Shown piece by piece: positions 783 through 53,886 of a DNA stretch of 64,000 nucleotides. The notes beneath the pieces are model-generated. The model had not been told where the DNA came from and did no database searches. It saw nothing but the letters and a program-made list of their open reading frames with translations. The stretch comes from Diplonema papillatum (Eukaryota; Euglenozoa; Diplonemea; Diplonemida; Diplonemidae): contig JAPJBO010000796.1 of NCBI GenBank assembly GCA_030068145.1, positions 41,537 to 105,536 on the forward strand. The letters are read 5' to 3'. Numbering within the stretch: the first letter of the stretch is position 1; each line of letters opens with the position of its first letter. The translations under genes were made by a program, and so were the position numbers.

Positions 783-983
783 AAAATGTACTTTATTGGT
801 GGCTTACCGTGGTCGCCGGCAAGCTCCCTCGGGCTTGTTAGGAAACATACGGTACCGGACCCCTCCGGTGAAAGCAACACACCAAGAAAGCGCGGAAAGA
901 TACGTAAAAAGAAAAAAAAAAAAAAAAAAAAAGAGAGAGAACAGAGAGAATCAGAGAAGACAGAAGGCCAGCCTCCCCACGGG

Positions 984-2705
984 ATGGAGGAGCTCCAACG
1001 CTTCATCGCGAGGGCGCAGCACCTTGCGGAGAAGGCGGTGAGCGAGGCGGACATCAGCGCCGCGTACGGGATCGTCAAGATCCTGCTCGTTCTTGCGGAG
1101 AAGGCGGCGGGGCAGCCCGTGAAGGCAGAGCAGACGCAGCCTGCGAAGGCAGGGCGGAAGCAGGCTGCGAAGCAGACGGCGGCGACACCGGCGGCGAAGG
1201 AGACGAGGGCCGACGACGCCCGCGACGTGCAGACTGACCGGGAGGACGCAACGCAGCGGCCGGGCGTGACATGGGCGAACGTGGTGACGAGAAGTCCGCA
1301 GGCGAGGGGCGGATACGTGAAAGCGCCGGGAGTCAGCCGCGGAAAGAGGCTGAGGCCATGCGACTGGCATGTCGAGGTGGTCGAGGCGGAGAAGGCGGAA
1401 GACATCCGGCAGGGGGTGGTCTACGCCGGAAGAAAGGAAACGGGGGAGCAGCTTGGTGCGGGGTACCGAGAGCTGTTGGAGATGGAGGCGAAGGACCTTA
1501 GGGTCGCGCTGGTGACGCCGGGCAGGCTGACGGACGAGAGTCGGGAGCGGATCGTCAGATTCGACAACGGCACGGAGGCGTCGTGTTACGTGACGCAGTG
1601 GGGTGGAGCCGACGTCGGGCGTGTACCGATCGCGAAGGAGGTCGAGGTGGGAGATGCGACCACGGTCATGTGGTGTACAGTAATGTACAAGGACGTCGAC
1701 GAGAAGACACGCACCTCGCTGAAGAGTGCCGCGACGGGAGCAGGAGCAGCAGACGTGCTGTGTCGAAGAGCAGCGGCGGCCGCGGGGGTCACCATCGAGA
1801 GGAGGCATCGGTTTAACCACCGTTGCACGTCGACGCGGCACACGGTGTCAGTGCGGGTCACGACGCGCGAGGCGCCGACTCTACTGCGCTCCAGCGGCAA
1901 GGGGGGCGTGTACTGGGCCGCGCCATCCTTCGTCAATGGCAACGAGTTGCACCCCGTCGTGTGGCTGGCGGAGGATGCCAAGCTGGAGCAGGCGATGGAG
2001 ATCGCCGGACACGCCGACGCGCTCGGGGTGGCAGCGGCGAGGACGCGGTACGGGGTGCGCTACTCCGCCAGCAACCCGGCGGCCCGCAGGACGCTCATCG
2101 ACAGGGCCGGCTCCTTGGCAGCGCCGGAGCGCCAGGGCCCCCCCGAGGCGAGGTTCCTGGTGGAGAGCGAGGTCGGTGAGCATCAGGAGGAGATGCTCGC
2201 CGCACTGCGTGCGGTGCAGTGGGACTGCCGGGTCACGAAGTGCTTCGTGACAGGCAGGCGCACCAACCTGGTGGTCAACGCCAGCACGGACCCGCCAGCC
2301 GAGGTGGTGAAGAGGGCGAACAGGACGCCGCTCTACATCCGGAGGGTGAGGGTCGGCGACGTACCTAGCGGTACGAAGCATTGGAAGGGCCGCATCCCCA
2401 ACGCGCGGCTACCCCAGGGGGAACAGGATGCCCCACCGGCGGCTCGGCAGGAGGACGTGGCGCCGAGCGCGAAGCGGAAGGCGGGCGAGATGGAAGGCGA
2501 AGCCGCGGGAAGTGCGGAAGGCGAGATGCAGGTCGATGCGCACGTCCACAACTGGGGCGATGACGTGGAGAAGACGAAGGTGGCCTGGAAGTGCAGCCGC
2601 TGCAACGGAGGGAAGGGGAAGAACACGCTGCAGAGGAAGTGCGCGTGTGGTGCCAGAGTGTGCCACGAATGCTACCGCACCAGGGAGAAGGCTGGCAGTG
2701 GCTGA
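984..2705 (+). CDS. Element B ORF1 protein (nucleic-acid binding, gag-like)
   Basis: The start at 984 (MEELQRFIARAQ) is preferred over an in-frame ATG at 774, which lies in the upstream motif. It aligns with the start of element C ORF1 (MDDVDALIARAS). The protein has 573 residues. The N-terminus is helical and is followed by an Ala/Lys/Gln-rich linker. A central domain shared with C contains LLRSSGKGG and SFVNG about residues 295-320. The C-terminus is Cys/His-rich (WKCSRCN, then KCACGARVCHECY), a treble-clef-like zinc site. ORF1 proteins of non-LTR elements package the RNA and escort it. No RRM or canonical CCHC gag motif is visible. The stop lies 93 bases before ORF2. Confidence 0.8.
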   Translation: MEELQRFIARAQHLAEKAVSEADISAAYGIVKILLVLAEKAAGQPVKAEQTQPAKAGRKQAAKQTAATPAAKETRADDARDVQTDREDATQRPGVTWANVVTRSPQARGGYVKAPGVSRGKRLRPCDWHVEVVEAEKAEDIRQGVVYAGRKETGEQLGAGYRELLEMEAKDLRVALVTPGRLTDESRERIVRFDNGTEASCYVTQWGGADVGRVPIAKEVEVGDATTVMWCTVMYKDVDEKTRTSLKSAATGAGAADVLCRRAAAAAGVTIERRHRFNHRCTSTRHTVSVRVTTREAPTLLRSSGKGGVYWAAPSFVNGNELHPVVWLAEDAKLEQAMEIAGHADALGVAAARTRYGVRYSASNPAARRTLIDRAGSLAAPERQGPPEARFLVESEVGEHQEEMLAALRAVQWDCRVTKCFVTGRRTNLVVNASTDPPAEVVKRANRTPLYIRRVRVGDVPSGTKHWKGRIPNARLPQGEQDAPPAARQEDVAPSAKRKAGEMEGEAAGSAEGEMQVDAHVHNWGDDVEKTKVAWKCSRCNGGKGKNTLQRKCACGARVCHECYRTREKAGSG

Positions 2706-2798
2706 CTGCATCAGGATCCCCGGGCCACCGGAGGACCGAGGCCCTCGTTCGGGCTGCCGAGTCCTAGCAACGCTACTAGGCAGTTCGATCACGCAGCA

Positions 2799-5700
2799 AT
2801 GCGCGAAGGGGGCGGCAGACCCTCTTCTTCTTCTTTCTCCCCCTCTCTCGACGCGCCAGGCCTCAGTCGTCCGGGAGTTTTACCCCGAGGGCCCGACATT
2901 GCGCACAAACAAACCCCCCACAATGACCAACATCCGCGGCCGACTTACGGCGAGGGGCAAAGACCCGGGAGCAAGCCCCCCCGAAGCAGGGAGGATGGAC
3001 CCATTCCCGGGCTCAGCTTCCAGACGATCCCTCGGGACCTCCTGGAGAGGCTGAGCCGGGTCCCCGAGCTCAGACCGGAAGCCCCCTGGGGAAGGCTGGG
3101 GGGAGGGCATGGCAGGGAAACCCAGCAGTGGGGGCACGCCTATCGACAGGGCGGACCCCCGGTCAAACTGGAGCGGGGGATCCCCGAGGGGCCCCTGAGA
3201 GAAGCTGCGGATGTCATACGTGACCGTCTGGGGTGGGAACCGGACCAGTTGCTGGCCAACTGGTACCGGAAGGGAGTGGGGATAAACCCCCATAAAGACC
3301 AGCAAGAACTTGGACCGAGGGTTGCGACTGTTTCGCTACTGAGTGACACGGTCATGGAGTGGGAGAGGGGGACCCAAAGAGTGAGAACCCCGCTGCCAGC
3401 CGGCACTCTGTGCCACATGGAGGGCGAGGCCAGGAACCTGTGGACACACGGGATCCGTCCCGGTGATGTCACACACGACAGGGTCTCGCTCACCTACAGA
3501 GCTGTGCACGAGGGAAGGGCCCGCTGCTCCTCCCCCACCAGAGGAGAACAAGGTACGCTGGATCCACCCACAATGCCCCCCCCACCCCCCCCACAGTCAC
3601 TCACCCATCCCCCCCATCAACAGTCCAACCCTACGCATTTATGTAACAGTAAAAGAACAGAAGAATCAGTCAGAGGATCTGCACGAGAGCGGCTGTTAAC
3701 AGCTGGGGACGTCGAACAGAACCCTGGTCCCGGCCGCACGGAGATGAAGTTCGCGACGCTCAACGTGACCAGCATGCTGCAGTACATAGTAGCGGTTAAC
3801 GCGGTGGAAGCCGACCTTCTTTGCTGCCAGGAGGTCACACTCCTTCGATGCAAACGGGCACAGGCGGAGGAATACCTACGGAATTGGTGCTGCCACTGGG
3901 GTCCGCCACCTCCCGGGAGACTCTGTAGAAGCTCCGGTAGTCGCTCGACGACGAACGCTGCGAACGGGGGACTCTGCACTCTAGTACAGAGGCCGATACC
4001 GGCGTACGACACGTTGGCAGCGCTCTCGCACGTGGCGTTACGGTCCCCGGACCGGGTAAGCCATACTGTAGTCGCAACAGGGACCGGCAGCACCTTCGTG
4101 CACGTGTTCAATGTCTACTGCCCATCAGGAAACGGGAGGGCGGAGAACGAGGAACGTGAGGACATGCTGGAGAAGGTCCTCTTTGCGGCGGCAGACAGCC
4201 TCGGCGACGTCCCCATACTGGTGATGGGAGACCTCAACACGGAAGAAGATCGGTCCCCTGTTCTGCGGAAGGCACTTAGGAACGGATGGTCCGACGCAGC
4301 GGAACTGCACCATGCGCGCACCGGGAACACGCCTCCGCCACCGACCTTTACCAGCGCCCGGACGTCAGGCACGAGGATCGACCGCATACTCCTCAACCGC
4401 ATAGCGGCGTGTGCATTCCGTCAATGCGTCACCACCGCGGTGAACGTACCGGGACACCGGCTCGTGACAGTGACCCTGGATATTGCAGCGCTGCGCCAAA
4501 GCGTGTGGCGATTTAAGGTGCCGCGGGAGATCCCGACAGAGGGGGGGTCCAAGTGGGACCTCTCGGAAGCAGAAGCCGACAGGGAAGCCGTACAGAGACT
4601 GGCCAACTCCGAATTCGCGGAACGATTGGCGGCGCAGCGGGTGGAAGAGGCCTGGCTCGAGTGGTCACGGGTCAGTGAGCGGTACTTGCAGGATGCATTC
4701 GCCGTCCCTGTGGAAGAGAGAGGAAGGGGTACCGGCCGGGGGATGAAGACATTGCCGAGGAGGGTCTGTGTCACGGCGGGCACTGCGACCGACGGGTCGG
4801 GGGCAGCGAACAGCAGGCAGCTACGGCTTAGAAAGGCCATCCACCGGATGGAACGCATCTGCAGCTACCTCGCGCAACGTCGCGGGCCGGAAGCTGTTCC
4901 ACATGAGGTGTCCCTCTGCTGGCAGAACTGCAAGCGGCTGGCACAAGCGTGCATGGTGGGCGACCAAGGCGCAGGGGGGTTTCCGGATCATGAGAAGGCG
5001 AAGCAGCTGCTCACAGCGTTGCGGGAAGAGACGAGTAGGCTCGGAAGGGAAGGATCTGCGGCCAGGTTTACGAAGTACCGAGACAAGCTTAACGAGAGGG
5101 CGGACGCGAGCAGACGATGTCTAGCGACCGTCTGCGCCGGTCGCGCTGAGCCGTCGGGTGTGTTGCGCACCGGAGCGAAGATGACTGCAAATGTGGACGA
5201 GATGGACGAGGTGTTGCACACTGCGTGGGACGCTATCCTGCGTAAATACAAGGACCGGCCAGAGCCGGAGTACGGACCGTTTCGGGATCGGTTCCAGGAG
5301 CACATCGACACACACTTGATGGAACCCGGGACGATCACGGGGGAGGAGCTGCGGACTCTGCTAAGGAAGAAGCCGAAGAAAAGCGCGTCAGGCGTGGATG
5401 GCTGGCGCATGGCTGAACTGCGGGAGTTGCCGCTTCCCCTGCTGAATGCGCTAGCGGATGTCATGAACCTGGTCGAAGTGACTGGGGTTTGGCCGGCGAG
5501 CATGACAACTGCCCTGGTGTCGATGGTGCCGAAGGATGAGAGCCAAGACCCGCTGCACACGAGGCCAATAACCGTCACGTCCGCTGTGTACCGCCTATGG
5601 GCGTGCCGCAGGCTTGCGGACATAGTCCTGTGGCAGGAGAAGTGGATCGAAGAAGGACAGAAGGGCTTTCGACCGGGTCACCGTATCGAGGACGTCCTGA

Positions 5701-8700
5701 TGGAGATAGGGCTCGAGATGGAGGACGCCTTGCTAGATGGAGAGCCGCTCTACGGAGTGGCGCTGGACTTCCGGAAATGTTTCGACATGGTCCCGCGAGA
5801 GATAGTGCTGCGCCTGGCCGGGGACTTAGGGTTGCACAATCGGGTTCTCAAGCCGCTGAGGGCGATCTACAGACTGCTCGCGAGACGCTTCAAGCTGCCT
5901 CTAGGGGTGGGCAGGGAGTTTAGTGTGACCAATGGTATCCTTCAAGGGTGCCCTGTATCCGTCATCCTCATCAATGCCCTGCTGTCGGTAGTGATGAAGG
6001 CGGTCAAGAAAGAAGCGGAGGGGGTGAGCCCAAAGTCGTACGCGGACGATGCCACGCTGCTATCGCGGCTGTCGGAGGCCGCCCTGCAAAAGGGGGTGGA
6101 CGTGGTAGACGAGTTCTGCACGCTCACCGGAATGGAGCTGAACCTCCAGAAAACGGTCGCCTTCTCGACGAGACGTAGGCATCAGTCGACGCTCAGACTC
6201 CGCAGCGTGGATGCGCTGCTGCGGTTTGGCAAATCTGTCACGTGCCTGGGGGCCCTAGTCTCGACGGCGAAGAATAGGACAGAAAGGTCCGACTCGGAGA
6301 GGGTGGAGAAGGCGGCTGCCCTGGCGGAAGGCCTCCGCCATGCGCCGTTCCGGTACGAGAAGCGGGTCCGGATTGTACAGTCGAATGTGCTGCCGGCGGC
6401 GCTGTCAGGCTGCTCTTTCGCGCCGGTGTCGAAGGTGGCAATGAAACGGCTGACGACGTCGGTGATGGGACTGATCTGGGGTGGGTCCAACCCAAAGCGC
6501 GCGAGGGAGATGGTCCTAAATTTTCAGGAGAAGGGCCACCTGACGGACCCCAGTACATGCCTAGCATATAGGGTGACGACGGCGTTCTACGCGGCGTGCG
6601 AGAGGTTGCCACGACTTCTGCCTCTGATGGAGAGCATCCGGGGAAGGTACGCCGAGGAGGACCTACCCCTGGGGCCAGTTGGACTGGCGATGAAGAGCAT
6701 GGAGGAGTGTGGACACGTATGGGGACCAGGGCCCCTGTCTCGCACGCTGAGGAATGGTGCAATATTTGACCCGATAGCCTCGACACCCTCGAAGAGGGGG
6801 CATGAAGTGAGGGCGGATTTGAGGGCGAAGACGTGGTCCCGTCTGGTAGCGAGGCGGCCGGGATTTGAGGGTGTACAGAGAGCCGACTTGGAGCGGACGA
6901 ACTCCTTCTGGAGGATGCGTGAATGTCCCGCGCACACCGCGAGGCTTATACGTGTAGCGTTGGCGGGAGGAGTGAACACGGCTGAGTTCACGTCGCGGAT
7001 GAGACAGGCCGGAGCTGAGCCGCAGGCGCCCAGCTGCAAGCACTGTGGAAGCGGCGACACCGAGGACGAGAAACACGTATTCTGGGACTGCGGAGCGTAC
7101 TCGCACATACGGCGACGAGAGGCACATGCCGAGCTGATGGCGGCCAACCGCGCCGACTGGCCCAGATGCACGCTGGAACACGGAGTGGTAGTACCCGAAA
7201 ATGCCCACTTCTCGAGGCGGCTCCAGGAGATGATGGCTGAAATCCTTGCGGAGCGGGCAGGGCTCGAAGCACGAGGCTGGGTAGCCAGGAACCCCACGAC
7301 CCCCTGGTCGAGAGCGGATGCGATGCCTGCCGAGAAGCTCGACCACCCCTTTGCGCGGATTGCCCCGGCATGGGCGTGGGAGCGGAACAAGGCCTGGGGG
7401 CTACCGACGTTTTATGCGTTGGTAGCGTGGCTGTCAGACATGGAGTGGACCGAGAACGGGCAGGCGTCAATGCTAGAGCTTGCCATCGACTTTGAACTCT
7501 TTTCAGGCCTCAGCATACCGCTGCACGAGAATGCACCGAAGGGGGTGAGGGAGCGAGGAAACGTCCTGCGCTGCATGATCAGCGCGTTGGACAAGCTGGC
7601 GACACAGCAAGGGCTGGGGAGTTGCGAGCGAGGCGAGAGAGTATGCCCGACGACGTCGCTGTCGTTCATGGGCATCACGGGGATATCGGGGGTGCGGCCC
7701 AGGCCCCGCTTTCGCGAGGCACACACGGGGACGATCCTCGAAGAGCAGGTGAAGGGAAGCGATGTAGGGACGCAGTTCCCGACGTACCCGGACTGGACGG
7801 CCGAGAGAGCGGCGAGGTGGGCCCTGCCTGCCCCACCACAGCTGCACCCCGACCCCGTGCATATGCCGGGTGTCGGAGTAGAGAAGGCGCTCGTCACCTG
7901 CGCGACCCACCACAAGGGGAAGTGTGAGGCGTGTCGAGCACTCGTCCGAAGGGACGTGCCCACGGTAGAGATGTGCTGTCGGCACCATCACCACGCTGAC
8001 GATGGGCAGCCGATCGCGGTGTGCGTGGAGCACAGCACGACGAAATGCGGCGAGTGCAAGACGGCGGCGGCGTGCTGCCGCAGCGGGCATCATGCCTGCC
8101 GCACGCATGGCAGAGGAACCTGCCAGGAATGCAGGGGGCTCCCTACGTTGGCGCAGAGGAGACCGGCAGCGTGCTGCCGCCGCGGCCACCACCAACCCAA
8201 CGAACCGAACGCCCCGGCAACCCCCGGACACAGCAAAAAGAAGAAGAGACCCCTCTCACCCACCCAGGTGGGCGTACAACGAGAAACACCGGCGGGAAAG
8301 CGCGCGGCGCAGGCACCGCCCGCCGTGGTGAAGCAGAAGACGGCGACGACCGGACGGGCGGCCAAGAGGCCGCCACCAACGCCAGGGACCGGCGAACGAC
8401 CAGCGTTGAAGAAGAGGGTGCTCGGCACCCCGAAGGAGAGCCCGATCGCCGGCCGCAAGCGGAAGAAGGCGAAGGCGACCACACCCGAGTCAGGGGTGCA
8501 ACGAAAAAAGAAGAAGGCCCTTAAAGCAAGCAGCTACCAGAAACGTCCGACGTCCCCAAGCACTCCGGTGCCCTCGAGAGTGAAAAACGTGCAAGCCTGT
8601 CCGCACCTGTGCCCCCCCACGCAATCTCCAGAACCGCAAGAAAGCCCAGCGCCCCTGGCGCCACAAGTACTCGACCTTGACGACGCAATGACAGGTGACG

Positions 8701-8714
8701 ACGTCATAAAGTAA
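2799..8714 (+). CDS. Element B ORF2: AlkB-like domain - 2A - APE endonuclease - reverse transcriptase - Cys/His repeats
   Basis: A 1971-residue polyprotein. Residues about 105-235 look like an AlkB 2-oxoglutarate/Fe(II) dioxygenase: NWY at 154-156, HKD at 165-167, the third iron ligand H217, and R228 to R234 with the AlkB spacing R-x5-R. A Pro-rich linker leads to a canonical 2A peptide (GDVEQNPG/P, residues 303-311). This should release the AlkB part during translation. The APE-type endonuclease follows (about 316-575; LCCQE near 341-345, GDLN with D478, RIDRIL, PGHR). The reverse transcriptase covers about 865-1120 (motif A D990, YADD 1081-1084). A C-x2-C-x9-H-x4-C knuckle starts at C1413. 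From C1701 there are three Cys/His repeats and then a basic tail. All key residues needed for activity are present. The AlkB fusion is unusual for this class. Confidence 0.88.
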   Translation: MREGGGRPSSSSFSPSLDAPGLSRPGVLPRGPDIAHKQTPHNDQHPRPTYGEGQRPGSKPPRSREDGPIPGLSFQTIPRDLLERLSRVPELRPEAPWGRLGGGHGRETQQWGHAYRQGGPPVKLERGIPEGPLREAADVIRDRLGWEPDQLLANWYRKGVGINPHKDQQELGPRVATVSLLSDTVMEWERGTQRVRTPLPAGTLCHMEGEARNLWTHGIRPGDVTHDRVSLTYRAVHEGRARCSSPTRGEQGTLDPPTMPPPPPPQSLTHPPHQQSNPTHLCNSKRTEESVRGSARERLLTAGDVEQNPGPGRTEMKFATLNVTSMLQYIVAVNAVEADLLCCQEVTLLRCKRAQAEEYLRNWCCHWGPPPPGRLCRSSGSRSTTNAANGGLCTLVQRPIPAYDTLAALSHVALRSPDRVSHTVVATGTGSTFVHVFNVYCPSGNGRAENEEREDMLEKVLFAAADSLGDVPILVMGDLNTEEDRSPVLRKALRNGWSDAAELHHARTGNTPPPPTFTSARTSGTRIDRILLNRIAACAFRQCVTTAVNVPGHRLVTVTLDIAALRQSVWRFKVPREIPTEGGSKWDLSEAEADREAVQRLANSEFAERLAAQRVEEAWLEWSRVSERYLQDAFAVPVEERGRGTGRGMKTLPRRVCVTAGTATDGSGAANSRQLRLRKAIHRMERICSYLAQRRGPEAVPHEVSLCWQNCKRLAQACMVGDQGAGGFPDHEKAKQLLTALREETSRLGREGSAARFTKYRDKLNERADASRRCLATVCAGRAEPSGVLRTGAKMTANVDEMDEVLHTAWDAILRKYKDRPEPEYGPFRDRFQEHIDTHLMEPGTITGEELRTLLRKKPKKSASGVDGWRMAELRELPLPLLNALADVMNLVEVTGVWPASMTTALVSMVPKDESQDPLHTRPITVTSAVYRLWACRRLADIVLWQEKWIEEGQKGFRPGHRIEDVLMEIGLEMEDALLDGEPLYGVALDFRKCFDMVPREIVLRLAGDLGLHNRVLKPLRAIYRLLARRFKLPLGVGREFSVTNGILQGCPVSVILINALLSVVMKAVKKEAEGVSPKSYADDATLLSRLSEAALQKGVDVVDEFCTLTGMELNLQKTVAFSTRRRHQSTLRLRSVDALLRFGKSVTCLGALVSTAKNRTERSDSERVEKAAALAEGLRHAPFRYEKRVRIVQSNVLPAALSGCSFAPVSKVAMKRLTTSVMGLIWGGSNPKRAREMVLNFQEKGHLTDPSTCLAYRVTTAFYAACERLPRLLPLMESIRGRYAEEDLPLGPVGLAMKSMEECGHVWGPGPLSRTLRNGAIFDPIASTPSKRGHEVRADLRAKTWSRLVARRPGFEGVQRADLERTNSFWRMRECPAHTARLIRVALAGGVNTAEFTSRMRQAGAEPQAPSCKHCGSGDTEDEKHVFWDCGAYSHIRRREAHAELMAANRADWPRCTLEHGVVVPENAHFSRRLQEMMAEILAERAGLEARGWVARNPTTPWSRADAMPAEKLDHPFARIAPAWAWERNKAWGLPTFYALVAWLSDMEWTENGQASMLELAIDFELFSGLSIPLHENAPKGVRERGNVLRCMISALDKLATQQGLGSCERGERVCPTTSLSFMGITGISGVRPRPRFREAHTGTILEEQVKGSDVGTQFPTYPDWTAERAARWALPAPPQLHPDPVHMPGVGVEKALVTCATHHKGKCEACRALVRRDVPTVEMCCRHHHHADDGQPIAVCVEHSTTKCGECKTAAACCRSGHHACRTHGRGTCQECRGLPTLAQRRPAACCRRGHHQPNEPNAPATPGHSKKKKRPLSPTQVGVQRETPAGKRAAQAPPAVVKQKTATTGRAAKRPPPTPGTGERPALKKRVLGTPKESPIAGRKRKKAKATTPESGVQRKKKKALKASSYQKRPTSPSTPVPSRVKNVQACPHLCPPTQSPEPQESPAPLAPQVLDLDDAMTGDDVIK
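3105..3503 (+). other. AlkB-like dioxygenase domain within ORF2 of element B
   Basis: These codons carry the signature of the AlkB branch of 2OG-Fe(II) oxygenases. The HxD motif is at 3291-3299 (His, Lys, Asp) and is followed by RVATVSL. Then come a G-x-LCHM-x-G strand and a TH near 3444-3449. Finally DRVSLTYR supplies the two arginines that bind 2-oxoglutarate and shape the pocket. Known AlkB proteins remove methyl lesions from DNA or RNA bases. Substrate and activity here are inference. Elements C and D lack this part (D by truncation). Confidence 0.8.
3693..3731 (+). other. 2A ribosome-skipping sequence in element B ORF2
   Basis: The codons read LLTAGDVEQNPGP, matching the class-1 2A consensus D-(V/I)-E-x-N-P-G/P. 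The ribosome is expected to skip the Gly-Pro bond between 3728 and 3729. This separates an N-terminal protein with the AlkB-like domain from the endonuclease-RT. 2A sequences at the start of non-LTR ORF2 are known from trypanosomes and several animals. Confidence 0.9.
7899..8192 (+). other. Triple Cys/His repeat in ORF2 of element B
   Basis: Three consecutive modules share the pattern C-x2-H-x(3-4)-(K/T)C-x2-C, then 7-16 residues, then CCR followed by two or three His residues. They begin CATHHKGKCEAC, CVEHSTTKCGEC and CRTHGRGTCQEC. Each offers enough Cys/His for a zinc site. A basic Lys/Arg/Pro tail follows. The same block occurs in A and D but not in C. Confidence 0.75.
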
Positions 8715-8730
8715 CCTTAAGCGGCGACAC

Positions 8731-8782
8731 AGTGCATGCTAATCCATGTGGTTCATGTACTTAAAAGAACTCAATGCTTAAC
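8731..8782 (+). repeat. 52-bp target motif, copy 2 (3' of element B)
   Basis: This copy directly follows the 16-base 3' UTR of element B. The sequence just after it (AACAAGATTTGACGTGGGT) resembles the flank of the motif at 27509 and 45719. The resemblance soon fades, as expected if B inserted in another copy of a target family. Confidence 0.85.
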
Positions 8783-8888
8783 AAGATTTGACGTGGGTGG
8801 CTTTGTATTTACATCTGAATGACACCTCAATACGAAAAAGTTGTCGACAACTAACAAGTAAAAAGCAAAACTTCATTTCTGGCGATTA

Positions 8889-29039: not shown

Positions 29040-29210
29040 TGTTGATTCGAGGGCCACTCCCTCGTGCGAGCGAGTCTCGGAACAGGACTCAAAACTGTGA
29101 CCCAGGTGGCAACTGCCGACCATGACGGGCGCTTGCACCAGGATCTTGGAACAGCTTGTCACGCTAAGCTCATTGCACCAAGAGAGCTTGCGACATCCTC
29201 GGGTGAGACG
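29040..29210 (-). repeat. Inverted repeat, right arm, first piece
   Basis: Reverse complement of about 25030-25215. Shared text includes GACCATGACGGGCGCTTGCA and CACCCAGGTGGC-like blocks. Its end runs directly into the satellite. Confidence 0.7.
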
Positions 29211-32200
29211 TGCCGCCTGTGTTGACTCTCAGCTGTTGCGACGCGGTGCCGTGCAGCCTGTGTTGACTCTCAGCTGTTGCGACGCGGTGCCGTGCCGCCT
29301 GTGTTGACTCTCAGCTGTTGCGACGCGGTGCCGTGCCGCCTGTGTTGACTCTCAGCTGTTGCGACGCGGTGCCGTGCAGCCTGTGTTGACTCTCAGCTGT
29401 TGCGACGCGGTGCCGTGCAGCCTGTGTTGACTCTCAGCTGTTGCGACGCGGTGCCGTGCAGCCTGTGTTGACTCTCAGCTGTTGCGACGCGGTGCCGTGC
29501 AGCCTGTGTTGACTCTCAGCTGTTGCGACGCGGTGCCGTGCAGCCTGTGTTGACTCTCAGCTGTTGCGACGCGGTGCCGTGCAGCCTGTGTTGACTCTCA
29601 GCTGTTGCGACGCGGTGCCGTGCAGCCTGTGTTGACTCTCAGCTGTTGCGACGCGGTGCCGTGCAGCCTGTGTTGACTCTCAGCTGTTGCGACGCGGTGC
29701 CGTGCAGCCTGTGTTGACTCTCAGCTGTTGCGACGCGGTGCCGTGCAGCCTGTGTTGACTCTCAGCTGTTGCGACGCGGTGCCGTGCAGCCTGTGTTGAC
29801 TCTCAGCTGTTGCGACGCGGTGCCGTGCAGCCTGTGTTGACTCTCAGCTGTTGCGACGCGGTGCCGTGCAGCCTGTGTTGACTCTCAGCTGTTGCGACGC
29901 GGTGCCGTGCAGCCTGTGTTGACTCTCAGCTGTTGCGACGCGGTGCCGTGCAGCCTGTGTTGACTCTCAGCTGTTGCGACGCGGTGCCGTGCAGCCTGTG
30001 TTGACTCTCAGCTGTTGCGACGCGGTGCCGTGCAGCCTGTGTTGACTCTCAGCTGTTGCGACGCGGTGCCGTGCAGCCTGTGTTGACTCTCAGCTGTTGC
30101 GACGCGGTGCCGTGCAGCCTGTGTTGACTCTCAGCTGTTGCGACGCGGTGCCGTGCAGCCTGTGTTGACTCTCAGCTGTTGCGACGCGGTGCCGTGCAGC
30201 CTGTGTTGACTCTCAGCTGTTGCGACGCGGTGCCGTGCAGCCTGTGTTGACTCTCAGCTGTTGCGACGCGGTGCCGTGCAGCCTGTGTTGACTCTCAGCT
30301 GTTGCGACGCGGTGCCGTGCAGCCTGTGTTGACTCTCAGCTGTTGCGACGCGGTGCCGTGCAGCCTGTGTTGACTCTCAGCTGTTGCGACGCGGTGCCGT
30401 GCAGCCTGTGTTGACTCTCAGCTGTTGCGACGCGGTGCCGTGCAGCCTGTGTTGACTCTCAGCTGTTGCGACGCGGTGCCGTGCAGCCTGTGTTGACTCT
30501 CAGCTGTTGCGACGCGGTGCCGTGCAGCCTGTGTTGACTCTCAGCTGTTGCGACGCGGTGCCGTGCAGCCTGTGTTGACTCTCAGCTGTTGCGACGCGGT
30601 GCCGTGCAGCCTGTGTTGACTCTCAGCTGTTGCGACGCGGTGCCGTGCAGCCTGTGTTGACTCTCAGCTGTTGCGACGCGGTGCCGTGCAGCCTGTGTTG
30701 ACTCTCAGCTGTTGCGACGCGGTGCCGTGCAGCCTGTGTTGACTCTCAGCTGTTGCGACGCGGTGCCGTGCAGCCTGTGTTGACTCTCAGCTGTTGCGAC
30801 GCGGTGCCGTGCAGCCTGTGTTGACTCTCAGCTGTTGCGACGCGGTGCCGTGCAGCCTGTGTTGACTCTCAGCTGTTGCGACGCGGTGCCGTGCAGCCTG
30901 TGTTGACTCTCAGCTGTTGCGACGCGGTGCCGTGCAGCCTGTGTTGACTCTCAGCTGTTGCGACGCGGTGCCGTGCAGCCTGTGTTGACTCTCAGCTGTT
31001 GCGACGCGGTGCCGTGCAGCCTGTGTTGACTCTCAGCTGTTGCGACGCGGTGCCGTGCAGCCTGTGTTGACTCTCAGCTGTTGCGACGCGGTGCCGTGCA
31101 GCCTGTGTTGACTCTCAGCTGTTGCGACGCGGTGCCGTGCAGCCTGTGTTGACTCTCAGCTGTTGCGACGCGGTGCCGTGCAGCCTGTGTTGACTCTCAG
31201 CTGTTGCGACGCGGTGCCGTGCAGCCTGTGTTGACTCTCAGCTGTTGCGACGCGGTGCCGTGCAGCCTGTGTTGACTCTCAGCTGTTGCGACGCGGTGCC
31301 GTGCAGCCTGTGTTGACTCTCAGCTGTTGCGACGCGGTGCCGTGCAGCCTGTGTTGACTCTCAGCTGTTGCGACGCGGTGCCGTGCAGCCTGTGTTGACT
31401 CTCAGCTGTTGCGACGCGGTGCCGTGCAGCCTGTGTTGACTCTCAGCTGTTGCGACGCGGTGCCGTGCAGCCTGTGTTGACTCTCAGCTGTTGCGACGCG
31501 GTGCCGTGCAGCCTGTGTTGACTCTCAGCTGTTGCGACGCGGTGCCGTGCAGCCTGTGTTGACTCTCAGCTGTTGCGACGCGGTGCCGTGCAGCCTGTGT
31601 TGACTCTCAGCTGTTGCGACGCGGTGCCGTGCAGCCTGTGTTGACTCTCAGCTGTTGCGACGCGGTGCCGTGCAGCCTGTGTTGACTCTCAGCTGTTGCG
31701 ACGCGGTGCCGTGCAGCCTGTGTTGACTCTCAGCTGTTGCGACGCGGTGCCGTGCAGCCTGTGTTGACTCTCAGCTGTTGCGACGCGGTGCCGTGCAGCC
31801 TGTGTTGACTCTCAGCTGTTGCGACGCGGTGCCGTGCAGCCTGTGTTGACTCTCAGCTGTTGCGACGCGGTGCCGTGCAGCCTGTGTTGACTCTCAGCTG
31901 TTGCGACGCGGTGCCGTGCAGCCTGTGTTGACTCTCAGCTGTTGCGACGCGGTGCCGTGCAGCCTGTGTTGACTCTCAGCTGTTGCGACGCGGTGCCGTG
32001 CAGCCTGTGTTGACTCTCAGCTGTTGCGACGCGGTGCCGTGCAGCCTGTGTTGACTCTCAGCTGTTGCGACGCGGTGCCGTGCAGCCTGTGTTGACTCTC
32101 AGCTGTTGCGACGCGGTGCCGTGCAGCCTGTGTTGACTCTCAGCTGTTGCGACGCGGTGCCGTGCAGCCTGTGTTGACTCTCAGCTGTTGCGACGCGGTG

Positions 32201-34902
32201 CCGTGCAGCCTGTGTTGACTCTCAGCTGTTGCGACGCGGTGCCGTGCAGCCTGTGTTGACTCTCAGCTGTTGCGACGCGGTGCCGTGCAGCCTGTGTTGA
32301 CTCTCAGCTGTTGCGACGCGGTGCCGTGCAGCCTGTGTTGACTCTCAGCTGTTGCGACGCGGTGCCGTGCAGCCTGTGTTGACTCTCAGCTGTTGCGACG
32401 CGGTGCCGTGCAGCCTGTGTTGACTCTCAGCTGTTGCGACGCGGTGCCGTGCAGCCTGTGTTGACTCTCAGCTGTTGCGACGCGGTGCCGTGCAGCCTGT
32501 GTTGACTCTCAGCTGTTGCGACGCGGTGCCGTGCAGCCTGTGTTGACTCTCAGCTGTTGCGACGCGGTGCCGTGCAGCCTGTGTTGACTCTCAGCTGTTG
32601 CGACGCGGTGCCGTGCAGCCTGTGTTGACTCTCAGCTGTTGCGACGCGGTGCCGTGCAGCCTGTGTTGACTCTCAGCTGTTGCGACGCGGTGCCGTGCAG
32701 CCTGTGTTGACTCTCAGCTGTTGCGACGCGGTGCCGTGCAGCCTGTGTTGACTCTCAGCTGTTGCGACGCGGTGCCGTGCAGCCTGTGTTGACTCTCAGC
32801 TGTTGCGACGCGGTGCCGTGCAGCCTGTGTTGACTCTCAGCTGTTGCGACGCGGTGCCGTGCAGCCTGTGTTGACTCTCAGCTGTTGCGACGCGGTGCCG
32901 TGCAGCCTGTGTTGACTCTCAGCTGTTGCGACGCGGTGCCGTGCAGCCTGTGTTGACTCTCAGCTGTTGCGACGCGGTGCCGTGCAGCCTGTGTTGACTC
33001 TCAGCTGTTGCGACGCGGTGCCGTGCAGCCTGTGTTGACTCTCAGCTGTTGCGACGCGGTGCCGTGCAGCCTGTGTTGACTCTCAGCTGTTGCGACGCGG
33101 TGCCGTGCAGCCTGTGTTGACTCTCAGCTGTTGCGACGCGGTGCCGTGCAGCCTGTGTTGACTCTCAGCTGTTGCGACGCGGTGCCGTGCAGCCTGTGTT
33201 GACTCTCAGCTGTTGCGACGCGGTGCCGTGCAGCCTGTGTTGACTCTCAGCTGTTGCGACGCGGTGCCGTGCAGCCTGTGTTGACTCTCAGCTGTTGCGA
33301 CGCGGTGCCGTGCAGCCTGTGTTGACTCTCAGCTGTTGCGACGCGGTGCCGTGCAGCCTGTGTTGACTCTCAGCTGTTGCGACGCGGTGCCGTGCAGCCT
33401 GTGTTGACTCTCAGCTGTTGCGACGCGGTGCCGTGCAGCCTGTGTTGACTCTCAGCTGTTGCGACGCGGTGCCGTGCAGCCTGTGTTGACTCTCAGCTGT
33501 TGCGACGCGGTGCCGTGCAGCCTGTGTTGACTCTCAGCTGTTGCGACGCGGTGCCGTGCAGCCTGTGTTGACTCTCAGCTGTTGCGACGCGGTGCCGTGC
33601 AGCCTGTGTTGACTCTCAGCTGTTGCGACGCGGTGCCGTGCAGCCTGTGTTGACTCTCAGCTGTTGCGACGCGGTGCCGTGCAGCCTGTGTTGACTCTCA
33701 GCTGTTGCGACGCGGTGCCGTGCAGCCTGTGTTGACTCTCAGCTGTTGCGACGCGGTGCCGTGCAGCCTGTGTTGACTCTCAGCTGTTGCGACGCGGTGC
33801 CGTGCAGCCTGTGTTGACTCTCAGCTGTTGCGACGCGGTGCCGTGCAGCCTGTGTTGACTCTCAGCTGTTGCGACGCGGTGCCGTGCAGCCTGTGTTGAC
33901 TCTCAGCTGTTGCGACGCGGTGCCGTGCAGCCTGTGTTGACTCTCAGCTGTTGCGACGCGGTGCCGTGCAGCCTGTGTTGACTCTCAGCTGTTGCGACGC
34001 GGTGCCGTGCAGCCTGTGTTGACTCTCAGCTGTTGCGACGCGGTGCCGTGCAGCCTGTGTTGACTCTCAGCTGTTGCGACGCGGTGCCGTGCAGCCTGTG
34101 TTGACTCTCAGCTGTTGCGACGCGGTGCCGTGCAGCCTGTGTTGACTCTCAGCTGTTGCGACGCGGTGCCGTGCAGCCTGTGTTGACTCTCAGCTGTTGC
34201 GACGCGGTGCCGTGCAGCCTGTGTTGACTCTCAGCTGTTGCGACGCGGTGCCGTGCAGCCTGTGTTGACTCTCAGCTGTTGCGACGCGGTGCCGTGCAGC
34301 CTGTGTTGACTCTCAGCTGTTGCGACGCGGTGCCGTGCAGCCTGTGTTGACTCTCAGCTGTTGCGACGCGGTGCCGTGCAGCCTGTGTTGACTCTCAGCT
34401 GTTGCGACGCGGTGCCGTGCAGCCTGTGTTGACTCTCAGCTGTTGCAGCCTGTGTTGACTCTCAGCTGTTGCGACGCGGTGCCGTGCAGCCTGTGTTGAC
34501 TCTCAGCTGTTGCGACGCGGTGCCGTGCAGCCTGTGTTGACTCTCAGCTGTTGCGACGCGGTGCCGTGCAGCCTGTGTTGACTCTCAGCTGTTGCGACGC
34601 GGTGCCGTGCAGCCTGTGTTGACTCTCAGCTGTTGCGACGCGGTGCCGTGCAGCCTGTGTTGACTCTCAGCTGTTGCGACGCGGTGCCGTGCAGCCTGTG
34701 TTGACTCTCAGCTGTTGCGACGCGGTGCCGTGCAGCCTGTGTTGACTCTCAGCTGTTGCGACGCGGTGCCGTGCAGCCTGTGTTGACTCTCAGCTGTTGC
34801 GACGCGGTGCCGTGCAGCCTGTGTTGACTCTCAGCTGTTGCGACGCGGTGCCGTGCAGCCTGTGTTGACTCTCAGCTGTTGCGACGCGGTGCCGTGCAGC
34901 CT
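29211..34902 (+). repeat. Satellite array, 41-bp unit, about 139 copies
   Basis: The unit is GCAGCCTGTGTTGACTCTCA followed by GCTGTTGCGACGCGGTGCCG and T. The copies are almost all identical. A few of the first copies read GCCGCCTG instead of GCAGCCTG, and one copy near 34446 lacks 15 bases. The period is not a multiple of three, and no long frame exists. The homogeneity points to recent expansion or strong homogenisation. Copy number may be distorted by assembly. Confidence 0.97.
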
Positions 34903-51209: not shown

Positions 51210-53886
51210 CCTTGACTTGAGATTGATTGACTTTGGTCTGACACAAGACAGACTTTATTCTGACCTCGTGTCTGACTTTAATCTGACTTTGGTCTGGATT
51301 TAGGTTGGCTTTGACTTGAGATTGACTGACTTTGGTCTGACTCAAGACAGACTTTAGTCTGACCTCGTGTCTGACTTTAATCTGACTCTGGTCTGGATTT
51401 AGGTTGGCTTTGACTTGAGATTGACTGACTTTGGTCTGACTCAAGACAGACTTTAGTCTGACCTCGTGTCTGACTTTAATCTGACTTTGGTCTGGATTTA
51501 GGTTGGCTTTGACTTGAGATTGACTGACTTTGGTCTGACTCAAGACAGACTTTAGTCTGACCTCGTGTCTGACTTTAATCTGACTCTGGTCTGGATTTAG
51601 GTTGGCTTTGACTTGAGATTGACTGACTTTGGTCTGACTCAAGACAGACTTTAGTCTGACCTCGTGTCTGACTTTAATCTGACTTTGGTCTGGATTTAGG
51701 TTGGCTTTGACTTGAGATTGACTGACTTTGGTCTGACTCAAGACAGACTTTAGTCTGACCTCGTGTCTGACTTTAATCTGACTTTGGTCTGGATTTAGGT
51801 TGGCTTTGACTTGAGATTGACTGACTTTGGTCTGACTCAAGACAGACTTTAGTCTGACCTCGTGTCTGACTTTAATCTGACTCTGGTCTGGATTTAGGTT
51901 GGCTTTGACTTGAGATTGACTGACTTTGGTCTGACTCAAGACAGACTTTAGTCTGACCTCGTGTCTGACTTTAATCTGACTTTGGTCTGGATTTAGGTTG
52001 GCTTTGACTTGAGATTGACTGACTTTGGTCTGACTCAAGACAGACTTTAGTCTGACCTCGTGTCTGACTTTAATCTGACTCTGGTCTGGATTTAGGTTGG
52101 CTTTGACTTGAGATTGACTGACTTTGGTCTGACTCAAGACAGACTTTAGTCTGACCTCGTGTCTGACTTTAATCTGACTTTGGTCTGGATTTAGGTTGGC
52201 TTTGACTTGAGATTGACTGACTTTGGTCTGACTCAAGACAGACTTTAGTCTGACCTCGTGTCTGACTTTAATCTGACTTTGGTCTGGATTTAGGTTGGCT
52301 TTGACTTGAGATTGACTGACTTTGGTCTGACTCAAGACAGACTTTAGTCTGACCTCGTGTCTGACTTTAATCTGACTCTGGTCTGGATTTAGGTTGGCTT
52401 TGACTTGAGATTGACTGACTTTGGTCTGACTCAAGACAGACTTTAGTCTGACCTCGTGTCTGACTTTAATCTGACTTTGGTCTGGATTTAGGTTGGCTTT
52501 GACTTGAGATTGACTGACTTTGGTCTGACTCAAGACAGACTTTAGTCTGACCTCGTGTCTGACTTTAATCTGACTCTGGTCTGGATTTAGGTTGGCTTTG
52601 ACTTGAGATTGACTGACTTTGGTCTGACTCAAGACAGACTTTAGTCTGACCTCGTGTCTGACTTTAATCTGACTTTGGTCTGGATTTAGGTTGGCTTTGA
52701 CTTGAGATTGACTGACTTTGGTCTGACTCAAGACAGACTTTAGTCTGACCTCGTGTCTGACTTTAATCTGACTCTGGTCTGGATTTAGGTTGGCTTTGAC
52801 TTGAGATTGACTGACTTTGGTCTGACTCAAGACAGACTTTAGTCTGACCTCGTGTCTGACTTTAATCTGACTTTGGTCTGGATTTAGGTTGGCTTTGACT
52901 TGAGATTGACTGACTTTGGTCTGACTCAAGACAGACTTTAGTCTGACCTCGTGTCTGACTTTAATCTGACTCTGGTCTGGATTTAGGTTGGCTTTGACTT
53001 GAGATTGACTGACTTTGGTCTGACTCAAGACAGACTTTAGTCTGACCTCGTGTCTGACTTTAATCTGACTTTGGTCTGGATTTAGGTTGGCTTTGACTTG
53101 AGATTGACTGACTTTGGTCTGACTCAAGACAGACTTTAGTCTGACCTCGTGTCTGACTTTAATCTGACTCTGGTCTGGATTTAGGTTGGCTTTGACTTGA
53201 GATTGACTGACTTTGGTCTGACTCAAGACAGACTTTAGTCTGACCTCGTGTCTGACTTTAATCTGACTTTGGTCTGGATTTAGGTTGGCTTTGACTTGAG
53301 ATTGACTGACTTTGGTCTGACTCAAGACAGACTTCAGTCTGACCTCGTGTCTGACTTTAATCTGACTCTGGTCTGGATTTAGGTTGGCTTTGACTTGAGA
53401 TTGACTGACTTTGGTCTGACTCAAGACAGACTTTAGTCTGACCTCGTGTCTGACTTTAATCTGACTTTGGTCTGGATTTAGGTTGGCTTTGACTTGAGAT
53501 TGACTGACTTTGGTCTGACTCAAGACAGACTTCAGTCTGACCTCGTGTCTGACTTTAATCTGACTCTGGTCTGGATTTAGGTTGGCTTTGACTTGAGATT
53601 GACTGACTTTGGTCTGACTCAAGACAGACTTTAGTCTGACCTCGTGTCTGACTTTAATCTGACTTTGGTCTGGATTTAGGTTGGCTTTGACTTGAGATTG
53701 ACTGACTTTGGTCTGACTCAAGACAGACTTCAGTCTGACCTCGTGTCTGACTTTAATCTGACTCTGGTCTGGATTTAGGTTGGCTTTGACTTGAGATTGA
53801 CTGACTTTGGTCTGACTCAAGACAGACTTTAGTCTGACCTCGTGTCTGACTTTAATCTGACTTTGGTCTGGATTTAGGTTGGCTTT
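51210..53886 (+). repeat. Minisatellite, 99-bp unit, about 27 copies
   Basis: The unit contains GACTTTGGTCTGACTCAAGA, CAGACTTTAGTCTGACCTCG, TGTCTGACTTTAATCTGACT and TGGATTTAGGTTGGC. It lies in intron 2. Units alternate mostly between CTGACTTTGG and CTGACTCTGG, suggesting a 198-bp higher-order unit. Because the unit is 33 codons long, the minus strand stays open for about 1000 codons. Confidence 0.95.

Follow-up and report, generated by a model that had tools for sequence, protein, structure and literature searches.

A 64,000-nucleotide stretch of the Diplonema papillatum genome, hereafter the window (assembly GCA_030068145.1, contig JAPJBO010000796.1, positions 41,537 to 105,536 of the forward strand), carries an APE-type retrotransposon without long terminal repeats (LTRs), or long interspersed nuclear element (LINE). 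Its second open reading frame (ORF2) encodes an AlkB-family 2-oxoglutarate (2OG)-Fe(II) dioxygenase domain ahead of a 2A peptide, an endonuclease and a reverse transcriptase (RT). This LINE is not the only carrier of such a domain; judged by sequence, one AlkB clade is common to the LINE, to Helitrons and to a third kind of element in this genome. The catalysis and substrate discussed below are predictions. An original prediction had described the order of domains and proposed that the element makes a separate nucleic-acid demethylase; our results support that interpretation in part and find it right in kind. Papers are cited by PubMed Central (PMC) accession.

The AlkB domain of ORF2

ORF2 (positions 2799-8714 of the window; forward strand, as for all window features given here) comprises 1,971 amino acids from its ATG and runs from AlkB through the 2A peptide, APE endonuclease and RT to a Cys/His-rich tail. 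That a single frame holds HxD, a distal histidine, R-x5-R, GDVEQNPGP, APE endonuclease and RT was confirmed by Pfam and by alignment. A check against 2OG-Fe(II) profiles gave a strong match to PF13532 at 3195-3500 (E 4.9e-14; 53.4 bits against a curated cut-off of 31.2), and structure prediction gave a confident model of 3006-3524 with fold matches to the AlkB family. With E values up to 1 admitted, the Pfam search of ORF2 showed PF13532 as the sole dioxygenase family and gave no TET/JBP type. Among solved structures, the best sequence match is the dioxygenase domain of ALKBH8 (profile E 5.1e-18); the profile matches also include NMAD-1, whose deposited record describes a DNA N6-methyl adenine demethylase.

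The HxD iron-binding motif (H-K-D, 3291-3299), the distal iron-binding histidine (3447-3449), the R-x5-R arginines for 2OG and substrate (RVSLTYR, 3480-3500) and the N-x-Y motif of the AlkB family are all present. The residues N, Y, H, D, H, R and R are invariant in eight of eight aligned transposon AlkBs, which come from the LINE, Helitrons and the third element type. The AlkB fold is thus complete, with all iron- and 2OG-binding residues. A chance motif or a decayed insert is ruled out by the PF13532 match, the invariant residues and the confident model.

Other copies of the element and diverged subfamilies keep the AlkB region with intact motifs, in line with the original prediction. The order AlkB-2A-endonuclease is retained in the subfamilies compared, namely L059 and L060, whose AlkB shares 84-85% identity with that of the window, and L061. 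For the window versus L059, L060 and L061, the ratio of nonsynonymous to synonymous substitution rates (dN/dS) is 0.178, 0.164 and 0.143 in AlkB, compared with 0.725, 0.725 and 0.384 in the linker; between the AlkBs of the LINE and of the third element type it is 0.158-0.262. Pairs that are almost identical say little: the values for window-L055 (0.319) and L059-L060 (1.31) come from six and five changes, respectively. In bootstraps on a fresh alignment without L062, in which the window-L059 linker value is 0.684, dN/dS was lower in AlkB than in the linker in 1997 of 2000, 1867 of 1934 and 1850 of 2000 replicates for three pairs, with 95% intervals that overlap except in window-L059. The AlkB domain is under purifying selection, which is stronger than that on the linker.

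The LLTAG context upstream of the 2A peptide (SARERLLTAGDVEQNPGP, 3678-3731) is favorable to ribosome skipping, which is predicted to occur between the last G and P and to free the endonuclease-RT. The motif, GDVEQNPGP in the window and GDIEQNPGP in L061, conforms to the 2A pattern D(V/I)ExNPGP (PMC4981915), and one or the other form is retained across the compared subfamilies. A comparison of endonuclease-RT regions comprised 25 rows (the window and 24 of 46 protein matches), of which 11, window included, were labeled as 2A-bearing; P0027 and P0029 have only 2A-like motifs. Among these rows, whose gene models are often truncated, AlkB occurs only in the window's family, and even near-identical records such as P0005 are without it. 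P0017 carries a Cys-rich, finger-like stretch, a 2A, a second 2A and endonuclease-RT in one frame, without AlkB. An OTU protease domain stands N-terminally, ahead of the endonuclease, in P0036, where the window element has AlkB, and another, just below the Pfam cut-off, takes AlkB's place in P0033. Because of these three records, the part of the frame before the endonuclease appears to be a module slot, of which AlkB would be one tenant.

ORF1 (984-2705, from the first in-frame ATG inside the element) has a Cys-rich, finger-like C-terminus, and a Pfam scan of it gave no family match. It is in frame with ORF2, and a single UGA lies between the two (2703-2705; UGA CUG). The same UGA is found in three copies of a sister subfamily (L055, L057 and L058), in which ACG replaces the ATG at 2799 and the next in-frame Met lies beyond the HxD motif. 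Because the ATG is lost yet each of these copies keeps the whole 2,002-amino-acid frame, the sister subfamily probably relies on UGA readthrough or on non-AUG initiation. Readthrough may therefore yield AlkB as part of an ORF1-AlkB product, which the 2A parts from the endonuclease-RT.

AlkB domains in Helitrons and other elements

A PF13532 profile search of the genome was scored for the best 150 of 250 candidates; genome-wide counts here and below are lower bounds. At least 76 of the 150 matches lie in frames of 1,900 amino acids or more, and for at least 82 a scored 2A follows downstream on the same strand, no more than 800 nucleotides away. The other 68 places are without a listed 2A, although some do have one (for example, C817, which is L059). 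Thirty of the 150 loci were read, and four more were fetched later. Sorted by sequence, 17 of the 30 fall in a distinct transposon-borne clade, and the remaining 13 are termed host-type, a label for loci outside that clade and not proof of real host genes.

Two branches of the clade (L036/L037/L039 and L046-L050) include frames that also hold Helitron_like_N. The two domains share one frame of 2,986 amino acids on contig C166 and one of 3,249 on C1735, and on this basis the elements are classed as Helitrons. Their AlkB domains, at C166:25894-26286 (minus strand, L037) and C1735:10668-11105 (plus strand, L049), belong to the same clade as that of the LINE, and each opens a protein of about 3,000 amino acids. 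The third multidomain type, called type E (P0002, P0004 and L062), has AlkB ahead of an OTU-like domain in P0002, where a Pfam scan found AlkB, OTU below the cut-off and no other domain. The AlkBs of the LINE and of type E share 79% identity, so that transfer of the domain from element to element is probable. A further type, C (L043, L044 and L045), is a repeated AlkB-bearing frame of about 360-520 amino acids with a Lys-rich tail.

An AlkB tree was built from 83 rows: 8 from transposons, 12 of host type and 63 others. In it, the transposon AlkBs make up one side of a single long-stemmed branch, with support of 100/99 from a bootstrap that had not settled. The tree leaves out L035 (too short), L061, near-copy transposon loci and 57 of 120 homologues; several host rows are very long-branched, and with the unsettled bootstrap the outer placement is unsure. 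Recent capture from a present host AlkB is unsupported, as the 8 transposon rows group with none of the 12 host-type rows. AlkB is probably a shared tool that aids the spread of unrelated jumping genes.

Copies, target site and spliced-leader ends

The element, including a leader remnant, occupies approximately positions 787-8784. The last 12 nucleotides of the spliced leader, TGTACTTTATTG, stand at its 5' end (787-798), and the retrotransposon proper spans 799-8784 in a preferred target, with a 3' limit placed to within a few bases. Its 3' terminus, CTTAAAAGAACTCAATGCTTAACAA (8760-8784), overlaps the target motif GCTTAAC with its last bases; the 3' end common to element copies is CTCAATGCTTAACAA. 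The endonuclease (PF03372, 3774-4409), the RT (PF00078, 5553-6167, with YADD at the active site) and the existence of 5'-truncated copies place it among APE-type non-LTR elements. No RNase H appeared among the Pfam matches to ORF2 (E up to 1), nor did any integrase family, no search aimed at LTRs having been made.

A DNA search of the genome with 933 bp was scored for the best 40 of 290 candidates, and at least 31 of the 40 matches, window included, are exact over the 933 bp. Fetched copies are 99.6-99.98% identical to the window copy in main blocks of up to 8 kb, apart from two blocks of L010 (97.7 and 99.2%). They show 5' truncations at several points, with copies beginning at, for example, window positions 1202, 2335, 2505 and 2786. 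The whole 2,002-amino-acid ORF2 frame is present in 14 of 20 fetched copies; the others have a broken ORF2, are 5'-truncated or are cut by contig ends. Given that 31 of 40 scored matches are identical, the element looks recently mobile. Further copies and subfamilies rule out a single odd copy.

Fifteen of 17 visible 3' ends run into TAAC or AAAC, a spacer and ACGTGGG, and 9 of 12 5' flanks show GCTTAAC or GCTAAAC. The predicted empty site, CGCTGCTTAAC-spacer-ACGTGGGCGG, occurs at 590 genome sites, compared with none for the control. As judged from these flanks, the LINE is target-specific. Spacer classes of the target repeat (8770-8810) recur in element 3' flanks. Rfam assigned the repeat to no family, its one match (E 0.46) being taken as chance.

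PMC3795323 lists the spliced leader, AACCAACGATTTAAAAGCTACAGTTTCTGTACTTTATTG, under "Euglenozoa 14", in passages without mention of Diplonema. The genome holds 517 occurrences of the leader lacking its first AA, compared with 0 of a reversed control. Twelve full-length 5' ends were compared, the window's own and 11 from fetched copies, of which L009 and L010 seem to represent a single site. Of the 12, 11 have 12-14 leader nucleotides and one, L018, has 38 of the leader's 39, at the same element junction. L023 has an additional leader piece with an internal gap. In L022, a second leader remnant is joined to GTGCTACGGG, which is preceded by AATAG at related sites (L009, L010 and L025); this junction is likely a trans-splice acceptor. 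The last 12 leader nucleotides are joined to the element start at no fewer than 61 genome places, 20 of which reach at least 18 nucleotides. Each of the 20 also appears among the long matches of another query, and most form one near-identical group: 17 match only the first 56 nucleotides of that query, nearly all at one identity, and pairs stand about 8.5 kb apart on two contigs. The long leaders may thus represent one lineage.

Element 5' ends either hold about 37-39 leader nucleotides or are cut within the last 12-17. Insertion into spliced-leader RNA genes, as reportedly practiced by SLACS, was rejected, because the flanks are another repeat and in L018 the complete leader abuts the element. 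The position at which the short ends break off is homologous to that of pseudouridine 28 in the trypanosome leader (PMC9283944). One observation for an RT stop is the second remnant of L022, which is joined elsewhere and is cut at 13 nucleotides. Pseudouridine itself is not known to be acted on by AlkB or to block reverse transcription strongly.

Near the end of ORF2 (about 7900-8330), Cys/His-rich segments recur and give way to a basic tail; the Pfam scan gave no family there. Directly upstream of the element, head-to-tail, lies the 3' tail of an older related copy (1-786; 85% identity to the 3' part of fetched copies), and tails that are 96-98% identical stand ahead of copies L024 and L028. 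Large, nearly perfect satellite arrays occupy 29209-34902 and 51212-53886, with units of 41 bp (about 128 copies, plus 11) and 99 bp (27 copies).

Function and comparison with known systems

The explanation that we favor, with moderate confidence, is that a young, target-specific APE-type LINE has gained an AlkB domain upstream of its 2A and uses it on its own nucleic acid. Ribosomes would skip at the 2A and release the endonuclease-RT, and AlkB would be delivered alone, from a start at ATG or ACG, or joined to the ORF1 protein through UGA readthrough, which would bring the enzyme to the ribonucleoprotein of the element itself. In that position AlkB would oxidatively strip N-methyl groups, most likely from the spliced-leader-bearing RNA and possibly from DNA, and so counter host silencing or ease expression and copying. 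Since the AlkB is found both in LINEs, which copy RNA, and in Helitrons, which copy DNA, its substrate is probably something common to the two, such as messenger RNA or chromosomal copies, and not only the RT template.

Some observations qualify parts of this explanation. The 2A label is scattered in the endonuclease-RT tree, with 9 changes, no better than shuffles. The 3' ends of L013 and L015 are off pattern, in a variant site, and the 5' flanks of L012, L013 and L023 are without GCTTAAC or GCTAAAC. AlkB is unchanged in 20 of 20 fetched copies, but this is circular, as they were chosen from the 31 exact matches. Cut leaders other than the second remnant of L022 could be inherited and need not mark RT stops. 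A separate demethylase, as originally proposed, is not certain, since the in-frame UGA and the sister subfamily without the ATG make an ORF1-AlkB fusion possible.

AlkB might instead act on DNA, repairing or demethylating target DNA, cDNA or integrated copies (for example, at N6-methyladenine or alkylated bases) and countering DNA-based silencing, as proposed for fungal TET/JBP. The presence of the clade in Helitrons, which have no RNA intermediate, and of NMAD-1 among the profile matches points this way, as do the published passage of a 2OG dioxygenase among DNA transposons including Helitrons (PMC12730594) and the DNA methyltransferase homologues in the D. papillatum genome paper (PMC10161547). 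However, the best sequence match is to a tRNA-modifying enzyme, ALKBH8, and we regard action on DNA as rather unlikely. We also know of no action of AlkB enzymes on 5-methylcytosine.

The ALKBH8 match, and the public annotation of P0002, a related protein, as a tRNA carboxymethyluridine methyltransferase, would fit action on tRNA, or on host RNA in trans, that tunes translation for the element. This seems improbable: Pfam does not find the RNA-recognition motif (RRM) and methyltransferase parts of ALKBH8 in ORF2, and the name of P0002, where Pfam sees only AlkB and the sub-threshold OTU, probably derives from its AlkB part. Equally little credence is given to a spent or passenger domain, kept for nucleic-acid binding or hitchhiking without an enzymatic role. 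Relatives without AlkB exist, as such a passenger would allow, but the cofactor residues are invariant across all three element types and purifying selection exceeds that on the linker. A combined, novel view is quite doubtful: AlkB as a tool shared by LINE, Helitron and third type that in the LINE is fused to ORF1 by readthrough and erases methyl marks, including RT-stalling ones, on the element's own spliced-leader RNA. The two classes of leader end, with the short ones breaking off at the counterpart of pseudouridine 28, would fit this view. Our estimate for it was lowered because most long leaders form one near-identical group, perhaps one lineage.

The presence of AlkB in a LINE, and of one clade across LINEs and Helitrons, suggests that base methylation is a real front of host-transposon conflict in diplonemids, which are species-rich marine protists. 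It also affects a published inference: the genome paper deduces dynamic regulation by demethylation from a dozen AlkB homologues (PMC10161547), a number of the same order as our 13 host-type loci; the 82 or more scored matches counted above stand just ahead of the LINE's 2A. The system is open to testing, as the element is apparently recently mobile and gene replacement in D. papillatum is mentioned (PMC10161547).

The window AlkB resembles the ALKBH8 dioxygenase domain most closely in sequence, but it is part of a transposon polyprotein, and Pfam finds neither RRM nor tRNA methyltransferase in ORF1 or ORF2. RNA viruses (grapevine viruses, picorna-like viruses and others) likewise place AlkB inside a replication polyprotein, although their replication machinery differs from that of a LINE; fold matches to viral AlkBs in BFVD have 27% identity or less. 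L1Tc/ingi-type LINEs carry an RNase H domain after the RT, and we know of no AlkB in L1Tc. In contrast, Pfam finds no RNase H in the window LINE, whose 2A separates AlkB from endonuclease-RT. What L1Tc of Trypanosoma cruzi shares with it is a 2A in a euglenozoan LINE, in frame with active proteins (PMC4981915).

The original claim that no element with this exact order has been described agrees with the open-access literature, in which, judged from titles and abstract openings, we found no LINE or Helitron with AlkB. Ty3/Gypsy elements of Phalaenopsis orchids are also retrotransposons with an added AlkB-family 2OG dioxygenase; the protein binds RNA and, in tests that used an H448A mutant as the control, demethylates N6-methyladenosine RNA in vitro (PMC9289625). 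Those elements have LTRs and a separate extra ORF, and their AlkB is nested among plant ALKBH5 homologues (PMC9289625), whereas the window element is a LINE with a 2A-linked AlkB of a separate clade shared with Helitrons. In fungi, a 2OG-Fe(II) dioxygenase moves among many transposon lineages, including Helitrons, and an anti-silencing role has been proposed; the author remarks that no retrotransposon with TET/JBP is found in fungi (PMC12730594). The fungal DNA transposons carry TET/JBP, whereas here one AlkB clade is found in a LINE and in Helitrons. The spread of AlkB in D. papillatum thus parallels that of fungal TET/JBP, with another enzyme family and a retrotransposon.
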